From positions 1 to 64,000 of the forward strand of contig JAVZPJ010000001.1 of assembly GCA_038881635.1 (NCBI GenBank): a stretch of 64,000 nucleotides of DNA, read 5' to 3'. The notes under the pieces are model-generated. The model was not told the origin of the DNA. It saw only the letters and a program-made list of their open reading frames with translations, and did no database searches. Source of the stretch: Sulfolobales archaeon (GTDB taxonomy: Archaea > Thermoproteota > Thermoprotei_A > Sulfolobales > AG1). A program made the position numbers and the translations under genes. Of the stretch, positions 16,600 to 24,402 are shown piece by piece. How positions within the stretch are numbered: position 1 is the stretch's first letter; every line of letters starts with the position of its first letter.

Positions 16600-17526
16600 C
16601 TACGAGAGCACTGCTAAACCATATATTATATCTCTCTCAGTTATAATCCCTTTAATCTCCCCCTCTGAGAGCACAAGAAAGTAGTCTATATCTTCGCTGA
16701 GCATTCTCTCTGAAGCTTCTCCTATATCTCTATCATCTGATATAATGCTAGCCTCTTTCATCACAAGATCTACTGGAAGCTGGCAGAACTCATCATATGA
16801 GCCTTTTGTTAGATATCTGAAAACATCGTGAGATCCTATGAAATAAACTATATCGATAGCTCTCACAATACCTGCGATGCTTCCATCACTCCTTACAACA
16901 GGAAATCTTCTGACATTTAATATATTCATCTCTCTAATAACATCACAGAGCTTATCACCGTACCTCACAAAAGCTATGTTCTCGGTCATCACATCTCTAA
17001 CTTTAATACCTGTTATCTTTTCTCTAAGATATCTTATCAAGTCTCTCTCTGTTATTAATCCAATAAGGTTTTGATCCTTGTCTAGGACAACTACATAACC
17101 ACCCTCGCTTAAGACTATTGTCTCCAGAACTTCTCTAAGATCAGAGTCTTCTCCCACGGATGGAAAATCTCTTCTTGAGATAGACCTCGCAGTTTCTCTA
17201 TTGAGTGTCTCTATGAAAAATCCTCTGTGTTTGATCTCTATGAGAGTGCTGAAAGATCCTCCTAGAAGAGATATGAATTCTCTTAATGACACTACAGAAT
17301 CAACTTTTCTACCTATTTTTATCAGAGGGATCACTGTAGATCTATCCTGATAAGCTATTTCAAAAGCTTTTAGAATACTTATGTTAGGTGAGTAAATATT
17401 TTTAACAGGCTTTGATATAAGCCTCGCATAACCAGGTTTCCTAGAAAGTCTCTGACTAAAGTTAGGAGTTCCATCACTTCTGAGCCATCTAAATCTATCA
17501 TAAATCCTCTGAACTCTGTGCAACAT
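16600..17526 (-). CDS. Four-CBS-domain protein (second gene of pair)
   Basis: 308 residues. Repeated GLITERDLIRYL, GIVRAIDIVYFI and GIITERDIIYGL phrases mark CBS domains; I count four, the first two being more divergent. An N-terminal basic stretch (HRVQRIYDRFRWLRSDG) precedes them. CBS pairs bind adenosyl ligands such as AMP, ATP, MTA or AdoMet and regulate partner proteins. The ATG at 17526 follows an AGGTGA Shine-Dalgarno that overlaps the upstream gene's AGG-TGA end, so the pair is one transcript. Confidence 0.85.
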   Translation of the reverse strand: MLHRVQRIYDRFRWLRSDGTPNFSQRLSRKPGYARLISKPVKNIYSPNISILKAFEIAYQDRSTVIPLIKIGRKVDSVVSLREFISLLGGSFSTLIEIKHRGFFIETLNRETARSISRRDFPSVGEDSDLREVLETIVLSEGGYVVVLDKDQNLIGLITERDLIRYLREKITGIKVRDVMTENIAFVRYGDKLCDVIREMNILNVRRFPVVRSDGSIAGIVRAIDIVYFIGSHDVFRYLTKGSYDEFCQLPVDLVMKEASIISDDRDIGEASERMLSEDIDYFLVLSEGEIKGIITERDIIYGLAVLS

Positions 17527-17529
17527 ATA

Positions 17530-18336
17530 TCACCTGAGAATCCTTATGATCTCTCTCACTATATCAGATCTATCTATAATACCTTTTAAAATACCTTTCT
17601 CATCAACAACAGGAACTCTACCTATGTTTCTTTTGATGAGAATCTCAGCTACATCTAGAACCCTATCATTCTCTCTAACAGTTATAGGAGGTCTGCTCAT
17701 TAGAGTAGAAACCTTAGGACCTTTTCTAGGTCCTCTCTCACTTTGAAATGCTATGGATGTTCTAAGCAGATCATGCTGTGTTACCATGCCTACTACAACA
17801 CCTTTTTCATCCACAACTGGAAAACCTGAGAACCTGAATTTGATCATATTCTTCCAAACTGTTGAAACATAGGTATTAGGAGTCAGGTAGATAGGTTTTT
17901 TACTCATGATATCAATAGCCTTAACCTCTTTAAGTATGCTGATAATCTCTGAATCTCTTATCATCTTTTCTATAAAGAATTCAAATCCGAACACTCCTTT
18001 ATAGATCATCTCACTCCTAGAATCAGCTACAGGTATATACCATATATCATTATCAAGCATTCTAATAACAAGATCCAGCGTGTTATCACCGTGAAAACCT
18101 ACTAGCTGAGGCTCTACCATGAGATCTCTTACGAGAAGATTAGATCTAGATGATGCAATAGCAAGAATATTCTCACGCCATAAAACTCCTGAGATCCTGC
18201 CATTACTCTCGACTACAACCAGAATTCTGAGACCTAGCTCTCTCATAAGAGCTCTAGCTTTAGTAGCAATCTCATCTTTAAATATGTAGGGATTTCTTCT
18301 CGTGAAATTTTCAATAGAAGAGATTTTGCTTTGCAT
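17530..18336 (-). CDS. Four-CBS-domain protein (first gene of pair)
   Basis: 268 residues made of CBS motifs: VAIASSRSNLLVRDLM, VGMVTQHDLLRTS and GIIDRSDIVREI. It is the first gene of a two-gene minus-strand operon, divergent from another four-CBS gene across 105 bases. No catalytic domain is attached, so ligand sensing with a separate partner is likely. The adenine deaminase and MTA phosphorylase genes nearby make a purine-type ligand plausible, but this is inference. Confidence 0.85.
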   Translation of the reverse strand: MQSKISSIENFTRRNPYIFKDEIATKARALMRELGLRILVVVESNGRISGVLWRENILAIASSRSNLLVRDLMVEPQLVGFHGDNTLDLVIRMLDNDIWYIPVADSRSEMIYKGVFGFEFFIEKMIRDSEIISILKEVKAIDIMSKKPIYLTPNTYVSTVWKNMIKFRFSGFPVVDEKGVVVGMVTQHDLLRTSIAFQSERGPRKGPKVSTLMSRPPITVRENDRVLDVAEILIKRNIGRVPVVDEKGILKGIIDRSDIVREIIRILR

Positions 18337-18441
18337 AAGGAGTTAAGACCATAATAATAATTGCTTATCAAATTATTATTTTTGAGGATTGAAGCATAGA
18401 ATATATATGGCTGAATTGAATATAGTCTAGAGAGGATTTTC

Positions 18442-19293
18442 ATGGTTTCTAAAGTTGAGAGGTATATGAGCTCACCTGTTATATCTGTTTATGCCTCGGA
18501 TAATGTTGCTAGAGCTAGAAATCTTATGTTGAGACATAAGATAAGCAGGCTCGTAGTTATAGATAGCTCTGGGAAGCCTGTGGGGATTATCTCTAGATCT
18601 GATATAATAAGATTCTTTCTTAACAAGAAGAAAGCGGTTAGACCTCTCGAAGAGGTTCTAGTTGAAGAGATCATGAGCAAACCTCTTATAACTATACCAC
18701 CATCAGCTTCTCTGAAGAAAGCTTCAGAGATCATGTTGAAGAAAAATATAAGCAGTCTTCCTGTGGTGTCAGTGGAAAAAGGCTTGATAGGAATTCTCAC
18801 AGCAACAGATCTTGTAAGAGCATTTAGAGATCTGGGTTCCGGCAAAGCTAGAGTTCTAGATTATATGAGAAGAGATCCTCTGAGAGTATCTCGAGGACAC
18901 TCGATATTCTACGTAATAGAATTAATGAAAGCAGATCCCGATAGAAAGATCATTGTAGTAGAAGATCAGAAACCTATAGGAATTATAACAGAGAGTGATC
19001 TAGCATTTATAGAGCCTAGATCTATTTCAGAGTCTCGAGAAAGCTATATAAAGAAAAAAGGATATACAGCTAGAGGCTTCATTGGTGTTGTAAGAGATTA
19101 TATAATACCAACAGCAGAGGATCTCATGACGCCAAATCCTATCACAATAACCGAGGAAGAAGATCTGAGTAAAGCTTCTGATACTATGGTTAGAAATAAG
19201 ATAAGCTCTCTACCAGTAGTTGATTCTGGTGGGAATCTAACTGGATTGATCTCGAAGAGAGGAGTTCTGAAAGCAATTATAGATCTTCTTTAG
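18442..19293 (+). CDS. Four-CBS-domain protein
   Basis: 283 residues containing four CBS domains, with clear units ending GIISRSDIIRFF, GILTATDLVRAF, GIITESDLAFIE and GLISKRGVLKAI. Each unit opens with a phrase like YMSSPVISV, IMSKPLITI, YMRRDPLRV or LMTPNPITI. ATG 18442 lies 8 bases after AGAGAGG and downstream of a TATA-like GAATATATATGG (18398-18409). Its 3' end overlaps the convergent gene by 4 bases. Together with the two divergent genes it makes a three-gene CBS cluster. Confidence 0.87.
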   Translation: MVSKVERYMSSPVISVYASDNVARARNLMLRHKISRLVVIDSSGKPVGIISRSDIIRFFLNKKKAVRPLEEVLVEEIMSKPLITIPPSASLKKASEIMLKKNISSLPVVSVEKGLIGILTATDLVRAFRDLGSGKARVLDYMRRDPLRVSRGHSIFYVIELMKADPDRKIIVVEDQKPIGIITESDLAFIEPRSISESRESYIKKKGYTARGFIGVVRDYIIPTAEDLMTPNPITITEEEDLSKASDTMVRNKISSLPVVDSGGNLTGLISKRGVLKAIIDLL

Positions 19294-20234
19294 ATCTGAA
19301 TTTTCATAAGATGTTTAAGAAATTGAAGTAGAATTCCAAAATATATTGGTGATATAAGAGGATCTGTTTTTAAAACTACTTCATGAAAACTCTGCTTGTT
19401 AAAAAGAATCTTCTTTCTAATCTCCGATATCATCTGCTGTTCGATCTCGCTATAGAATAAGATCATATGAGAATCACCTCTTATAATAACAGGTCTATCA
19501 TAATCCGCTATGGATATCTCAGAATTTAAGCTATTCTGCACATACATTGTGATAAGCTCTTCACCTACAATCATAGAAGAAGGTGTTAAAATCACATCTA
19601 CTCTAGAGAAGGGTTTTAGTAAAATCTCTCTTATTCCGATCAGATCTTTCTCATATCTTCTACACAGATCTTTTGCCACATCTCTTAAATTCATGATCTC
19701 GTTATAAAGTCTCGAGATCCTTGGAGAGGACCTATCTCTTCTTAAGGCTTCAAGACCTGAGTAGAGTAATAGGATGCTTGCTTCTAGTGAAAAGAATTCT
19801 TCATCTACAGATAAGCTATCGAAAGAGTCTCCTGTGTAGCTCCTGATCTCATTTAAATCTCCTGATGATATGATCACACCTCTGTGACCTGTTAGCTTAA
19901 GTGGTGGCAGACTTCTCATGAGTCTATTAAACCCCTCCCTAGAAGATATGATGATCAGATCAGGTTCTCTACCTTCATTGTAGGGTGCTATATATAGCGA
20001 GTAGCTCTCCAACCTGTTCAAGCACACGCTTCTACCTATGGACAGGCTTCTTAGTAGAAGATATAAAGATAGTGCCGGGCTACTTCTATAATCAGCATAT
20101 AATATGTAAAGCTCTTTCGATGAATCTCTGATTCTCTCGGAGATTATCCTACTATCTAATTTAATTCTCCCAGCGATTCTCTCAATAAACTCATTCACAT
20201 GCTCAACAGTATCGCAAACACTATTCTTACTCAT
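19290..20234 (-). CDS. Hypothetical protein, possibly SIS-like Rossmann fold
   Basis: 314 residues. Segments such as ELYILYADYRSSPALSLYLLLRS, DLIIISSREGF and GVIISSGDLNEI alternate beta strands and helices in a way resembling sugar-isomerase (SIS) domains, but I see no diagnostic catalytic or sugar-binding motif. A second alpha/beta half follows (VDVILTPSSMIVGEE). The gene is probably independent, lying 31 bases upstream (transcriptionally) of nothing on its own strand except the CBS convergent end. Function unknown. Confidence 0.55.
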   Translation of the reverse strand: MSKNSVCDTVEHVNEFIERIAGRIKLDSRIISERIRDSSKELYILYADYRSSPALSLYLLLRSLSIGRSVCLNRLESYSLYIAPYNEGREPDLIIISSREGFNRLMRSLPPLKLTGHRGVIISSGDLNEIRSYTGDSFDSLSVDEEFFSLEASILLLYSGLEALRRDRSSPRISRLYNEIMNLRDVAKDLCRRYEKDLIGIREILLKPFSRVDVILTPSSMIVGEELITMYVQNSLNSEISIADYDRPVIIRGDSHMILFYSEIEQQMISEIRKKILFNKQSFHEVVLKTDPLISPIYFGILLQFLKHLMKIQI

Positions 20235-21186: not shown

Positions 21187-22002
21187 TTAGAGAATTAAAG
21201 AGATCTTATTGAGAATAGATTTTTCAAGGCATTCAATCCTGGAATCCACTTTATCTATGTTATCACATATCACGGTATTAATCTCAAATTCTTTAGAGAG
21301 ATTAGTAAGCCATCTAATCCTAGTCTCTTGATCTGGATTCAATTTTCTGAAAGAAATCTCAGGCTCATAATTCTCTTTACAAGAGATCACCGATATGACA
21401 GCTTTCTCTCCATCTTCAACACCTAGAAGTTTTAAAGCCTTTCTAATATCTCTAGAACCTCCTAATCTGAGAAGAAGTTCTATACTAGCGTTCTTCGCTA
21501 TGTTAGTACCAGTCTTAAAAGCTCTGATAACCTTCGCAACTGAGAATAATAGGATCCTCTCAGTAGGAACTTTATCAGGATTAAAAATCTGAAAATAAAA
21601 TCCTTCTCCCAATCCTTCTAACTCCTTCCAGAACTCTTTAGACCAAGCCTCCACCATATAATAGTATACTCTGCATCTTCTCTCAAGATCTAAAAACATG
21701 ACCACAAGATCCTCAAGACCACCTGCAGAACCTCCGTGGCTGACAGGCATTATTGTAACGATATCTCCATCTCTAAGCTCTTGATCCAATCCCTGGATCT
21801 GATAGTCAACCTCATTTACAAAAACAAGATACCCTGGCCTAGGACTTCCATCATTATTAACAGCTCTCGAAAACTCTCTTCTACTACTCAGGATCTCTAG
21901 AAGAAGCTTTCTCAAAGATATTCTCTCATTGAATGTATAACTCTCTTCACGACCTAGAATAAGAGCTAGAGAACCTAGAAACCTGACTTTGATCCTGATC
22001 AT
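21187..22002 (-). CDS. Ubiquitin-like (MoaD/Urm1-type) domain fused to KEOPS subunit Cgi121
   Basis: 271 residues in one uninterrupted frame. Residues 1-91 are a MoaD/ThiS/Urm1 beta-grasp domain (IKVRFLGSLALILG at the start, FVNEVDYQ, LRDGDIVTIMPVSHGG), ending in diglycine 90-91 with a second GG at 94-95. Residues of about 97-271 match Cgi121, the KEOPS component that binds Bud32 and the tRNA 3' end: KTGTNIAKNASIELLLRLGGSRDIRKALKLLG is the family signature (given here in two parts, residues 163-175 and 176-194). KEOPS makes the t6A modification of tRNA. It starts at ATG 22002, 2 bases after the DUF2175 stop, in an operon with ribosomal protein S17e. Whether the two domains stay joined or are cut at the diglycine is unknown. 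Confidence 0.8.
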   Translation of the reverse strand: MIRIKVRFLGSLALILGREESYTFNERISLRKLLLEILSSRREFSRAVNNDGSPRPGYLVFVNEVDYQIQGLDQELRDGDIVTIMPVSHGGSAGGLEDLVVMFLDLERRCRVYYYMVEAWSKEFWKELEGLGEGFYFQIFNPDKVPTERILLFSVAKVIRAFKTGTNIAKNASIELLLRLGGSRDIRKALKLLGVEDGEKAVISVISCKENYEPEISFRKLNPDQETRIRWLTNLSKEFEINTVICDNIDKVDSRIECLEKSILNKISLIL

Positions 22003-22004
22003 TC

Positions 22005-22334
22005 CTAGGCAGCTTCCTTTAGATACTTGGATAAACCACTACTAAGTTGTGCCGAGTATTTCTCTAATTCTTTTCTAACTCCTATGAGCAGATTTTTAAT
22101 CTCCTGATCCGAGGCTTTAGCCTCGGCATCTTTAAGCCTTATTATCGAGTAAGTGATAACCTCGTTTGCATCTAGTAGAGCTGTTAAATCTCTATTGACA
22201 TTCTCGAGGTTTCTTGTAAGTTTTTCTACAACACATTCGAAATGTGCGAATCCTATATCTCTTATAAATAGAAATCTCTGACCTTCAATAACTGTTTCAC
22301 CGCATAATCCACATTTCCAAGTTTTATACTTCAA
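22005..22334 (-). CDS. Small zinc-binding protein, DUF2175-like
   Basis: 109 residues. Cys8-x2-Cys11 and His31-x2-Cys34 form a likely zinc site, followed by a long helical part (residues 38-105). The N-terminal pattern (WKCGLCGETVIEGQRF) looks like the crenarchaeal DUF2175 family; that is from memory and not certain. Its ATG overlaps the S17e stop by 4 bases, so it is translated with the ribosomal gene, and its stop nearly touches the Ubl-Cgi121 start, which suggests a role in translation or tRNA biology. Confidence 0.7.
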   Translation of the reverse strand: MKYKTWKCGLCGETVIEGQRFLFIRDIGFAHFECVVEKLTRNLENVNRDLTALLDANEVITYSIIRLKDAEAKASDQEIKNLLIGVRKELEKYSAQLSSGLSKYLKEAA

Positions 22335-22588
22335 GTTGTCACATCCCCCTTTGTTTCCTCAGTCATAGTTTCTAAGCTTGTTTCTGCACTTTGTTTCTCT
22401 CTCTCTTTAATCTTCAGAAGATGTGTTATATATCCTGCGATCTGATTTCTAACCTTCTTACTTCTGGTAGTTATAAGCTGTGCTACTAACTTTTTATTGT
22501 ACTCAAAATCAGGCTTAAATAGATCTGGATATGATTCAAGTAGCTTTCTGGCTGTTGATTTAATATACTTTGTTCTTACATTCCCCAA
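22331..22588 (-). CDS. rps17e: Ribosomal protein S17e
   Basis: 85 residues with the S17e signature: GNVRTKYIKSTARKLLESYP, then TRSKKVRNQIAGYITHLLK. It is a component of the small ribosomal subunit shared by archaea and eukaryotes. Translation starts at TTG 22588 after a GAGGT-type Shine-Dalgarno. The C-terminal 20 residues are an acidic/Thr-rich tail. It leads a compact operon S17e - DUF2175 - Ubl/Cgi121 transcribed divergently from the thermosome gene. Confidence 0.92.
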   Translation of the reverse strand: MGNVRTKYIKSTARKLLESYPDLFKPDFEYNKKLVAQLITTRSKKVRNQIAGYITHLLKIKEREKQSAETSLETMTEETKGDVTT

Positions 22589-22743: not shown

Positions 22744-24402
22744 ATGGCTCAGACAGGTTATATTGAACCTACAGGAATTCCCGTGATAATACTAAAGGAG
22801 GGTAGTAGCAGAACAACAGGAAGAGACGCCCTAAGAGTTAATATGATGGCTGCCATAGCGGTAGCTGAAATGCTTAGAACAACCTACGGTCCTAGAGGCA
22901 TGGATAAAATGCTTGTAGACTCTCTAGGAGATATAACCATAACAAACGATGGAGCAACAATACTCGATAAAATGGATCTACAGCATCCAGCAGCTAAGAT
23001 GCTGGTTCAGATCGCTAAAGGTCAGGATGAAGAAGTTGGAGACGGTACTAAGACTGCTGTAATATTCGCCGGTGAACTACTTAAACAAAGCGAGGAACTC
23101 CTTCTCAAAGAAATCCATCCTACAACAATTATATCAGGCTATAAGAAAGCTCTTGAGATAGCTACGGAATACCTATACAAGATAGCTGAGTCAGTAGATA
23201 TATCTGATAGAAATACTCTCAGAGATATCGCTAGAACAGCTCTTACAAGCAAAGCAGTTCACGGAGCTAGAGATTATATTGCCGATATATCTGTTGAAGC
23301 TGTTCTAACAGTTGCCGAGAATAGAGATGGCAGATGGTATGTGGATCTCGACAATGTTCAGATAGTTAAGAAACACGGAGGATCTATACTAGATACAAAA
23401 CTCGTGAAAGGAGTTATACTAGACAAAGAAGTTGTACATCCTGCAATGCCTAGAAGAGTGACTAACGCAAGAATAGCTCTTCTAGATGCTCCATTAGAAA
23501 TCGAGAAACCCGAGATCGATGCAGAGATTAGAATAAACGATCCAACTTACATGAGGAAGTTCTTAGAGGAAGAAGAGAATATATTAGGCAAGTATGTTGA
23601 TAAGATTGCTTCTGTTGGTGCTAATGTTGTTATATGTCAGAAAGGTATTGACGACGTAGCACAACACTTCCTAGCTAAGAAAGGTATAATGGCTGTTAGA
23701 AGAGTGAAGAGAAGCGATATGGAGAAGCTAGAAAGAGCAACAGGCGGAAGAATAGTGAGTAATATTGATGATCTCACAGAAAACGACTTAGGATATGCAG
23801 AACTCGTAGAAGAGAGAAAGGTTGGCGAGGATAAGATGGTATTCATAGAAGGCACTAAGAATCCAAAGAGTGTATCAATACTAGTGAGAGGAGGTCTTGA
23901 GAGACTTGTCGACGAAACAGAGAGAACCTTAAGAGACTCTATGAGCTCTGTAGCAGATGTTCTCAGAGATAGTAGAGTAGTATATGGAGGAGGAGCTACA
24001 GAAATAGAGCTTGCATTGTATCTCAGAGAATACTCTACTAAAGTAGGAGGAAAAGAAGCTCTAGCAATAGAAGCATTTGCAAAAGCTTTAGAAGGTCTTG
24101 CAATAACTCTTCTAGAGAATGCTGGAATGGATCCTGTAGAGTATATAATGAAACTCAGAGCAGGTCATAGAGAGGGTCAGAGATGGCTTGGAGTAGATGT
24201 TCTCAGAAGTACTCTAAGTGATATGAAGACTTTAAGAGTAATAGAACCTGTAGTAGTAAAAGCTAACGCTCTAAAAGCAGGCACCGAGGCCGCAACACTT
24301 ATACTGAGAATCGATGACATGATCGCTGCAGCAAGAACTAAGACCACCGAAGAGAAGAAGAAGGAAGAGAAGAAAGAAGAAGAAGAGAAAGAGAAAGACT
24401 AA
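22744..24402 (+). CDS. Thermosome (group II chaperonin) subunit
   Basis: 552-residue archaeal chaperonin of the TCP-1/CCT family that forms a double-ring ATP-driven folding machine. Visible motifs: [25 protein letters not shown], the ATP-site [44 protein letters not shown] and [11 protein letters not shown]. The C-terminus is a charged [10 protein letters not shown] tail instead of the GGM repeats of some subunits. Other thermosome paralogs usually exist in crenarchaea and would be elsewhere. The promoter upstream is strong and the gene is monocistronic. Confidence 0.96.

Follow-up and report, generated by a model that had tools for sequence, protein, structure and literature searches.

A single gene of a Sulfolobales archaeon encodes a Urm1-type ubiquitin-like (Ubl) domain joined through an internal diglycine to Cgi121, a subunit of the KEOPS complex. 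This fusion, which lies within the 64,000-nucleotide stretch of DNA analyzed here (hereafter, the window), is real and well supported. Sequence comparisons and the analogy with JAMM-cleaved MoaD–MoaE fusions lead us to favor, with modest confidence, a linear precursor that would be cut after Gly91. The architecture itself is already known: a Ubl–Cgi121 fusion has been reported in Thaumarchaea, also beside S17 (Makarova & Koonin, 2010; PMC2948915), and fusions occur in further lineages of the phylum, so the original prediction, which knew of no described case, does not hold on this point. The window's fusion looks like an independent case, and what is new is the evidence on processing and the repeated origin of the fusion.

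A two-domain gene in the S17e operon

The fusion gene occupies positions 21187..22002 of the minus strand, starts with ATG, encodes 271 amino acids, and ends with a stop codon at 21187–21189. Its first 91 residues (21730..22002, minus strand) constitute a Urm1-type beta-grasp domain: Pfam Urm1 matches residues 4–91 above its curated cut-off (E = 4e-6 with the entire protein as query, 3e-7 with the domain alone), the NCBIfam model Urm1_like matches with a score below its cut-off, and sequence profiles retrieve yeast Urm1 (PDB 2pko, 8e-12) and Sulfolobus Urm1 (4wwm, 1e-11). The remainder, a linker plus Cgi121 (residues 92–271; 21190..21729, minus strand), contains a conserved core (residues 123–267; 21202..21636, minus strand) recognized by PF08617 (CGI-121) over residues 135–267 at 33.7 bits (cut-off 25) and by NF011465 (NCBIfam Cgi121) over residues 123–224 at 61 bits (cut-off 40); its profile matches in the PDB are archaeal Cgi121 (8unk/2k8y) and human Cgi121. 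In an AlphaFold2 model built from 9 sequences (mean pLDDT 75), the beta-grasp domain is confident (block pLDDT about 71–96, residues 1–80) and the Cgi121-like domain is folded apart from it, and Foldseek leads from this model to Urm1 and human Cgi121/KEOPS. The uninterrupted frame, the beta-grasp domain, and the full Cgi121 behind it, as described in the original prediction, are confirmed. No second Cgi121 was found in the window genome, where the fusion is the sole Cgi121 match. Homologues were sought in an order-wide sample of 197 genomes and a phylum sample of 300; against genome contigs, the window protein as a single query returned 0 loci and an alignment of fused homologues returned 11.

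The operon reads S17e, DUF2175, Urm1-Cgi121, with a methylthioadenosine phosphorylase gene downstream. Its first gene encodes ribosomal protein S17e (22331..22588, minus strand; Pfam/NCBIfam), whose presence in the operon had been correctly noted, and the second a small DUF2175 protein (22005..22334, minus strand; Pfam) that is separated from the fusion by 2 nt and is also found in a relative of the same genus (G005). A thermosome subunit, recognized from its translation (22744..24402, plus strand), is the divergent neighbor. S17e-urm1-cgi121 is a conserved operon across the order, with S17e placed immediately or one gene ahead of urm1, cgi121 following, and a divergent thermosome gene being usual; S17e-urm1-cgi121 itself extends to several other families of the phylum. 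The S17/thermosome neighborhood of Sulfolobales Urm1 has been described previously (Makarova & Koonin, 2010; PMC2948915). The same paper lists Cgi121 as absent in Sulfolobales and Desulfurococcales, whereas our searches recovered it from many members of the order to which the window belongs. Farther from the fusion, an open reading frame of 314 amino acids downstream of the phosphorylase (19290–20234) has no convincing Pfam or NCBIfam match, and three adjacent genes at 16600–19293 (two minus, one plus) have CBS-domain-like translations.

The diglycine junction

The Ubl domain ends in PVSHGG, and the two parts of the protein meet at Gly91–Ser92; the HGG is present, but internal in the chain. 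As originally claimed, the translation contains a diglycine at residues 90–91 and again at 94–95. His89-Gly90-Gly91 (21730..21738, minus strand), with the predicted cleavage site after Gly91, is invariant in fused homologues; the second diglycine (21718..21723, minus strand) is not conserved in their alignment. The low-confidence stretch of the AlphaFold2 model (pLDDT <50) covers exactly residues 89–94, and this HGGSAG segment is predicted to be flexible. Across three lineages, every one of the 36 fused Urm1 domains retains the internal HGG (16 from family f13, nine from f2, and 11 Urm1–phosphoribosyltransferase fusions from f5), in each of which only 16–20% of Urm1 columns are invariant, and the residues directly after the diglycine are variable. 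A Ubl end that stays buried would have no evident need for HGG, and its unchanging presence inside the chain favors release over a permanent tag.

The chief rival reading is that KEOPS carries the Ubl domain as a permanent arm. The fusion would stay uncut, and Urm1 would dock sulfur-relay or proteasome factors, or regulate the binding of Cgi121 to tRNA or to Bud32. The recurrence of the fusion in several lineages would be expected if tethering were useful, and Cgi121 is a complete, separate fold in the AlphaFold2 model; nevertheless, an uncut arm leaves the constant internal His-Gly-Gly unexplained, and the same invariance is seen when Urm1 is joined to an unrelated phosphoribosyltransferase, which makes this a rather unlikely, if serious, contender. 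It is quite improbable that the gene instead gives rise to two products by translation, namely the full-length chain and a free Cgi121 initiated internally at GTG (V100) or ATG (Met102; 21697..21699, minus strand) as a relic of the separate gene. These in-frame codons do lie 24–30 nt past the diglycine codons, and Cgi121 of relatives starts at or just past the corresponding codons, but the site is not conserved in other fusions, with none within 90 nt in genomes G136 or G441, and the diglycine end of Urm1 would stay unreleased.

Other extensions of Urm1 are found in the same operon. In nearly all f5 genomes, the Urm1 frame runs on past its terminal HGG into a phosphoribosyltransferase (PF00156), within the S17e operon (loci L024, L027, L028, L032, L034, and L140–L146), and in f4 urm1 and cgi121 lie far apart, apparently with an unfused copy of this phosphoribosyltransferase gene between them. 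Two stand-alone Urm1 proteins carry four-residue tails with a second diglycine, HGGVFGG at L138 (G121) and HGGMLGG at L139 (G168). Open reading frames downstream of the f5 Urm1/phosphoribosyltransferase (L138:1452-1907 and L146:1189-1683) resemble strongly diverged Cgi121 and have no Pfam match; if they truly are Cgi121, the gene would be present in f5 after all.

Fused and split genes among relatives

Among the genomes read, urm1 and cgi121 are fused in the window genome, nine f2 genomes, one f38 genome, and 16 f13 genomes; G249, likewise of f13, has them split. The genes are separate, abutting or overlapping, in G005, which belongs to the window's genus, and in G001, G002, and G004, which belong to its family. 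A tree of Urm1+Cgi121 places the window as sister to the split G005 (support 100/99) and far from f13, and the fused or split label changes at least six times on this tree. Judged from these sequences, the simplest reading would be that the genes fused independently three or four times or more, with repeated loss as an alternative. The split state of the same-genus relative and the separation of fused clades on the tree make the window fusion look like an origin separate from the others, and the tree does not support common ancestry with the Thaumarchaeal fusion. The f13 genomes, which fit the published description of the Thaumarchaeal Ubl–Cgi121, share with the window a Ubl N-terminal to Cgi121, an HGG junction, and an adjacent S17e, but seem to represent a different fusion event, the window's nearest relative being split.

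The separate genes can be very tightly packed. In 15 split genomes (f1, f2, f3, and f11), the ATG of cgi121 lies inside the CAT-GGN-GGN that encodes the His-Gly-Gly of urm1, in the +1 frame (loci L006, L059, L068, L069, L071, L073, L074, L080, L084, L086, L088, L091, L094, L112, and L113), and in others cgi121 begins at the urm1 stop codon or a few bases later. With an overlap this tight, in-frame fusions are easily reached. That an assembly or sequencing indel has joined two frames in an organism whose real genes are separate and overlapping is very improbable, for although the window sequence comes from one genome only and its closest relatives (G005, G001, G002, and G004) are split, in differing relative frames, there is no homopolymer at the junction, the diglycine is intact, the linker from about residue 96 aligns with homologous Cgi121 N-termini, neither alternative frame yields a Urm1 ending at the diglycine, and the architecture recurs in other genomes, single-contig or complete ones included. 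Its recurrence likewise led us to reject a chance fusion.

Two further arrangements were noted among the split genomes. Stop-codon readthrough was considered for f3 and f19, where an in-frame stop separates Urm1 from Cgi121, and was set aside, with an ordinary start lying just downstream in most. In G005 (L003) and G001 (L005/L008), Cgi121 is encoded in the −1 frame with respect to Urm1, with no ATG, GTG, or TTG before its core; an A7 run occurs in the junction region of G005, and inspection by eye found no convincing slippery heptamer at the G005 and G001 junctions. Frameshifting, an unusual start codon, or an indel in the metagenome-assembled genome (MAG) could each account for this arrangement, a MAG indel being as likely as a programmed frameshift.

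JAMM proteases and proposed precursor processing

The window genome encodes a single JAMM protease (C6:29184-29489) with an intact E + HxHx7Sx2D motif (HTH, S..D), whose best NCBIfam match is the (haloarchaeal) desampylase, below the cut-off of that model. It also encodes a single E1-like enzyme of the ThiF/MoeB type (349 amino acids), a single PP-loop tRNA thiolase closest to NcsA/TtuA, and Bud32 (C1:142526-143116; TIGR03724, above cut-off). Four Ubl matches were counted in this genome and three were read, among which HGG occurs in the fusion only; the other two have AOR and MoaE genes as neighbors and look MoaD-type, with C termini that read GG-I and GG-VF. With residues after the diglycine, these two (L134, G000:C9; L189, G000:C13) would also need trimming and are possible alternative substrates of the JAMM protease.

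The distribution of JAMM was compared with the Urm1 ending in 104 genomes of the order, JAMM being called where a match exceeds the Pfam cut-off. It is present in 52 of the 56 genomes in which Urm1 carries a tail or fusion and in 8 of the 48 in which it ends exactly in GG; by class, it accompanies 10/10 Urm1–Cgi121 fusions, 29/32 Urm1–phosphoribosyltransferase fusions (most of them assigned by open-frame length only), and 13/14 short tails. Counted by genus, the contrast is 16/16 versus 2/24. The very low Fisher p values for this association count related genomes repeatedly and hence are not to be taken at face value; of six independent pairs on the Urm1 tree, about four agree and none disagrees (median p 0.125), which falls short of significance once relatedness is corrected for. 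Outside the order, JAMM is also found with exact-GG Urm1 (7/7 in f19, and in f36), and since it is common there, its presence in the fused f13 and f38 genomes is uninformative. The pattern is suggestive, and its best reading may be that only lineages whose Urm1 requires no trimming can afford to lose JAMM.

Characterized systems offer both parallels and differences. Sulfolobus Urm1 (4wwm), known from work on urmylation in S. acidocaldarius and S. islandicus (PMC4569737, PMC12625751), shares with the window the Urm1-type domain, the HGG, and the S17e operon, but is a free protein, whereas the Urm1 C terminus of the window is buried in the fusion. In the f11 genomes read, which resemble Sulfolobaceae, Urm1 ends exactly in GG and no JAMM over the Pfam cut-off was found. 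In M. tuberculosis, MoaX requires cleavage between Gly82 and Ser83 (PMC4326299), the D. radiodurans JAMM cuts a MoaD–MoaE fusion, a step needed for its activity (PMC8832034), and Caldiarchaeum CsJAMM cleaves SAMP precursors (PMC6043591). Like the window fusion, MoaX and MoaD–MoaE join a Ubl through an internal diglycine to a partner, and serine follows the diglycine in both MoaX and the window fusion; their partner, however, is MoaE of molybdopterin synthase and cleavage at the diglycine is needed or shown, whereas here the partner is a KEOPS subunit and the cleavage is putative.

From these comparisons we infer that the chain is cut, which protease cuts it, and what becomes of each product. 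The fusion would have been born by in-frame joining of tightly packed neighbors in an old S17e-urm1-cgi121 operon, and would fix a 1:1 supply of Urm1 and Cgi121. Its gene would yield a single-chain precursor, which the JAMM protease would cut after Gly91, freeing both parts. Released Urm1, with a free Gly-Gly end, would be adenylated by the single MoeB/ThiF-type E1 and then carry sulfur to the NcsA/TtuA-type tRNA thiolase, act as a protein modifier, or do both, while released Cgi121 would join Bud32 in KEOPS for t6A. Such a linear precursor cut by a JAMM-type protease was among the possibilities first raised, next to a built-in KEOPS tag and a connection of tRNA thiolation with t6A, and the invariant HGG and the JAMM pattern support it, short of proof.

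Eukaryotic ubiquitin–ribosomal protein precursors are linear Ubl precursors with a translation-related partner. The window fusion would share with them the principle of making a Ubl as part of a longer chain, but its partner is Cgi121, with S17e adjacent and unfused. We tentatively suggest that a sulfur-carrier/modifier Ubl repeatedly and independently fused to operon neighbors (Cgi121 or phosphoribosyltransferase) and released by JAMM, with exact-GG lineages free to lose the protease, could be the archaeal counterpart of these precursors. If so, precursor processing, beyond de-conjugation, would be a reason that archaeal JAMMs are kept.

A link between Ubls and the t6A machinery was proposed in 2010 from one fusion family (PMC2948915), and no direct test of it was found in the open-access literature searched. 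Independent fusions that leave the predicted cut site unaltered, together with a JAMM distribution that fits, now give a testable question, namely, whether JAMM cuts the fusion. The same evidence suggests that archaea may make Ubls as fused precursors, much like eukaryotic ubiquitin.
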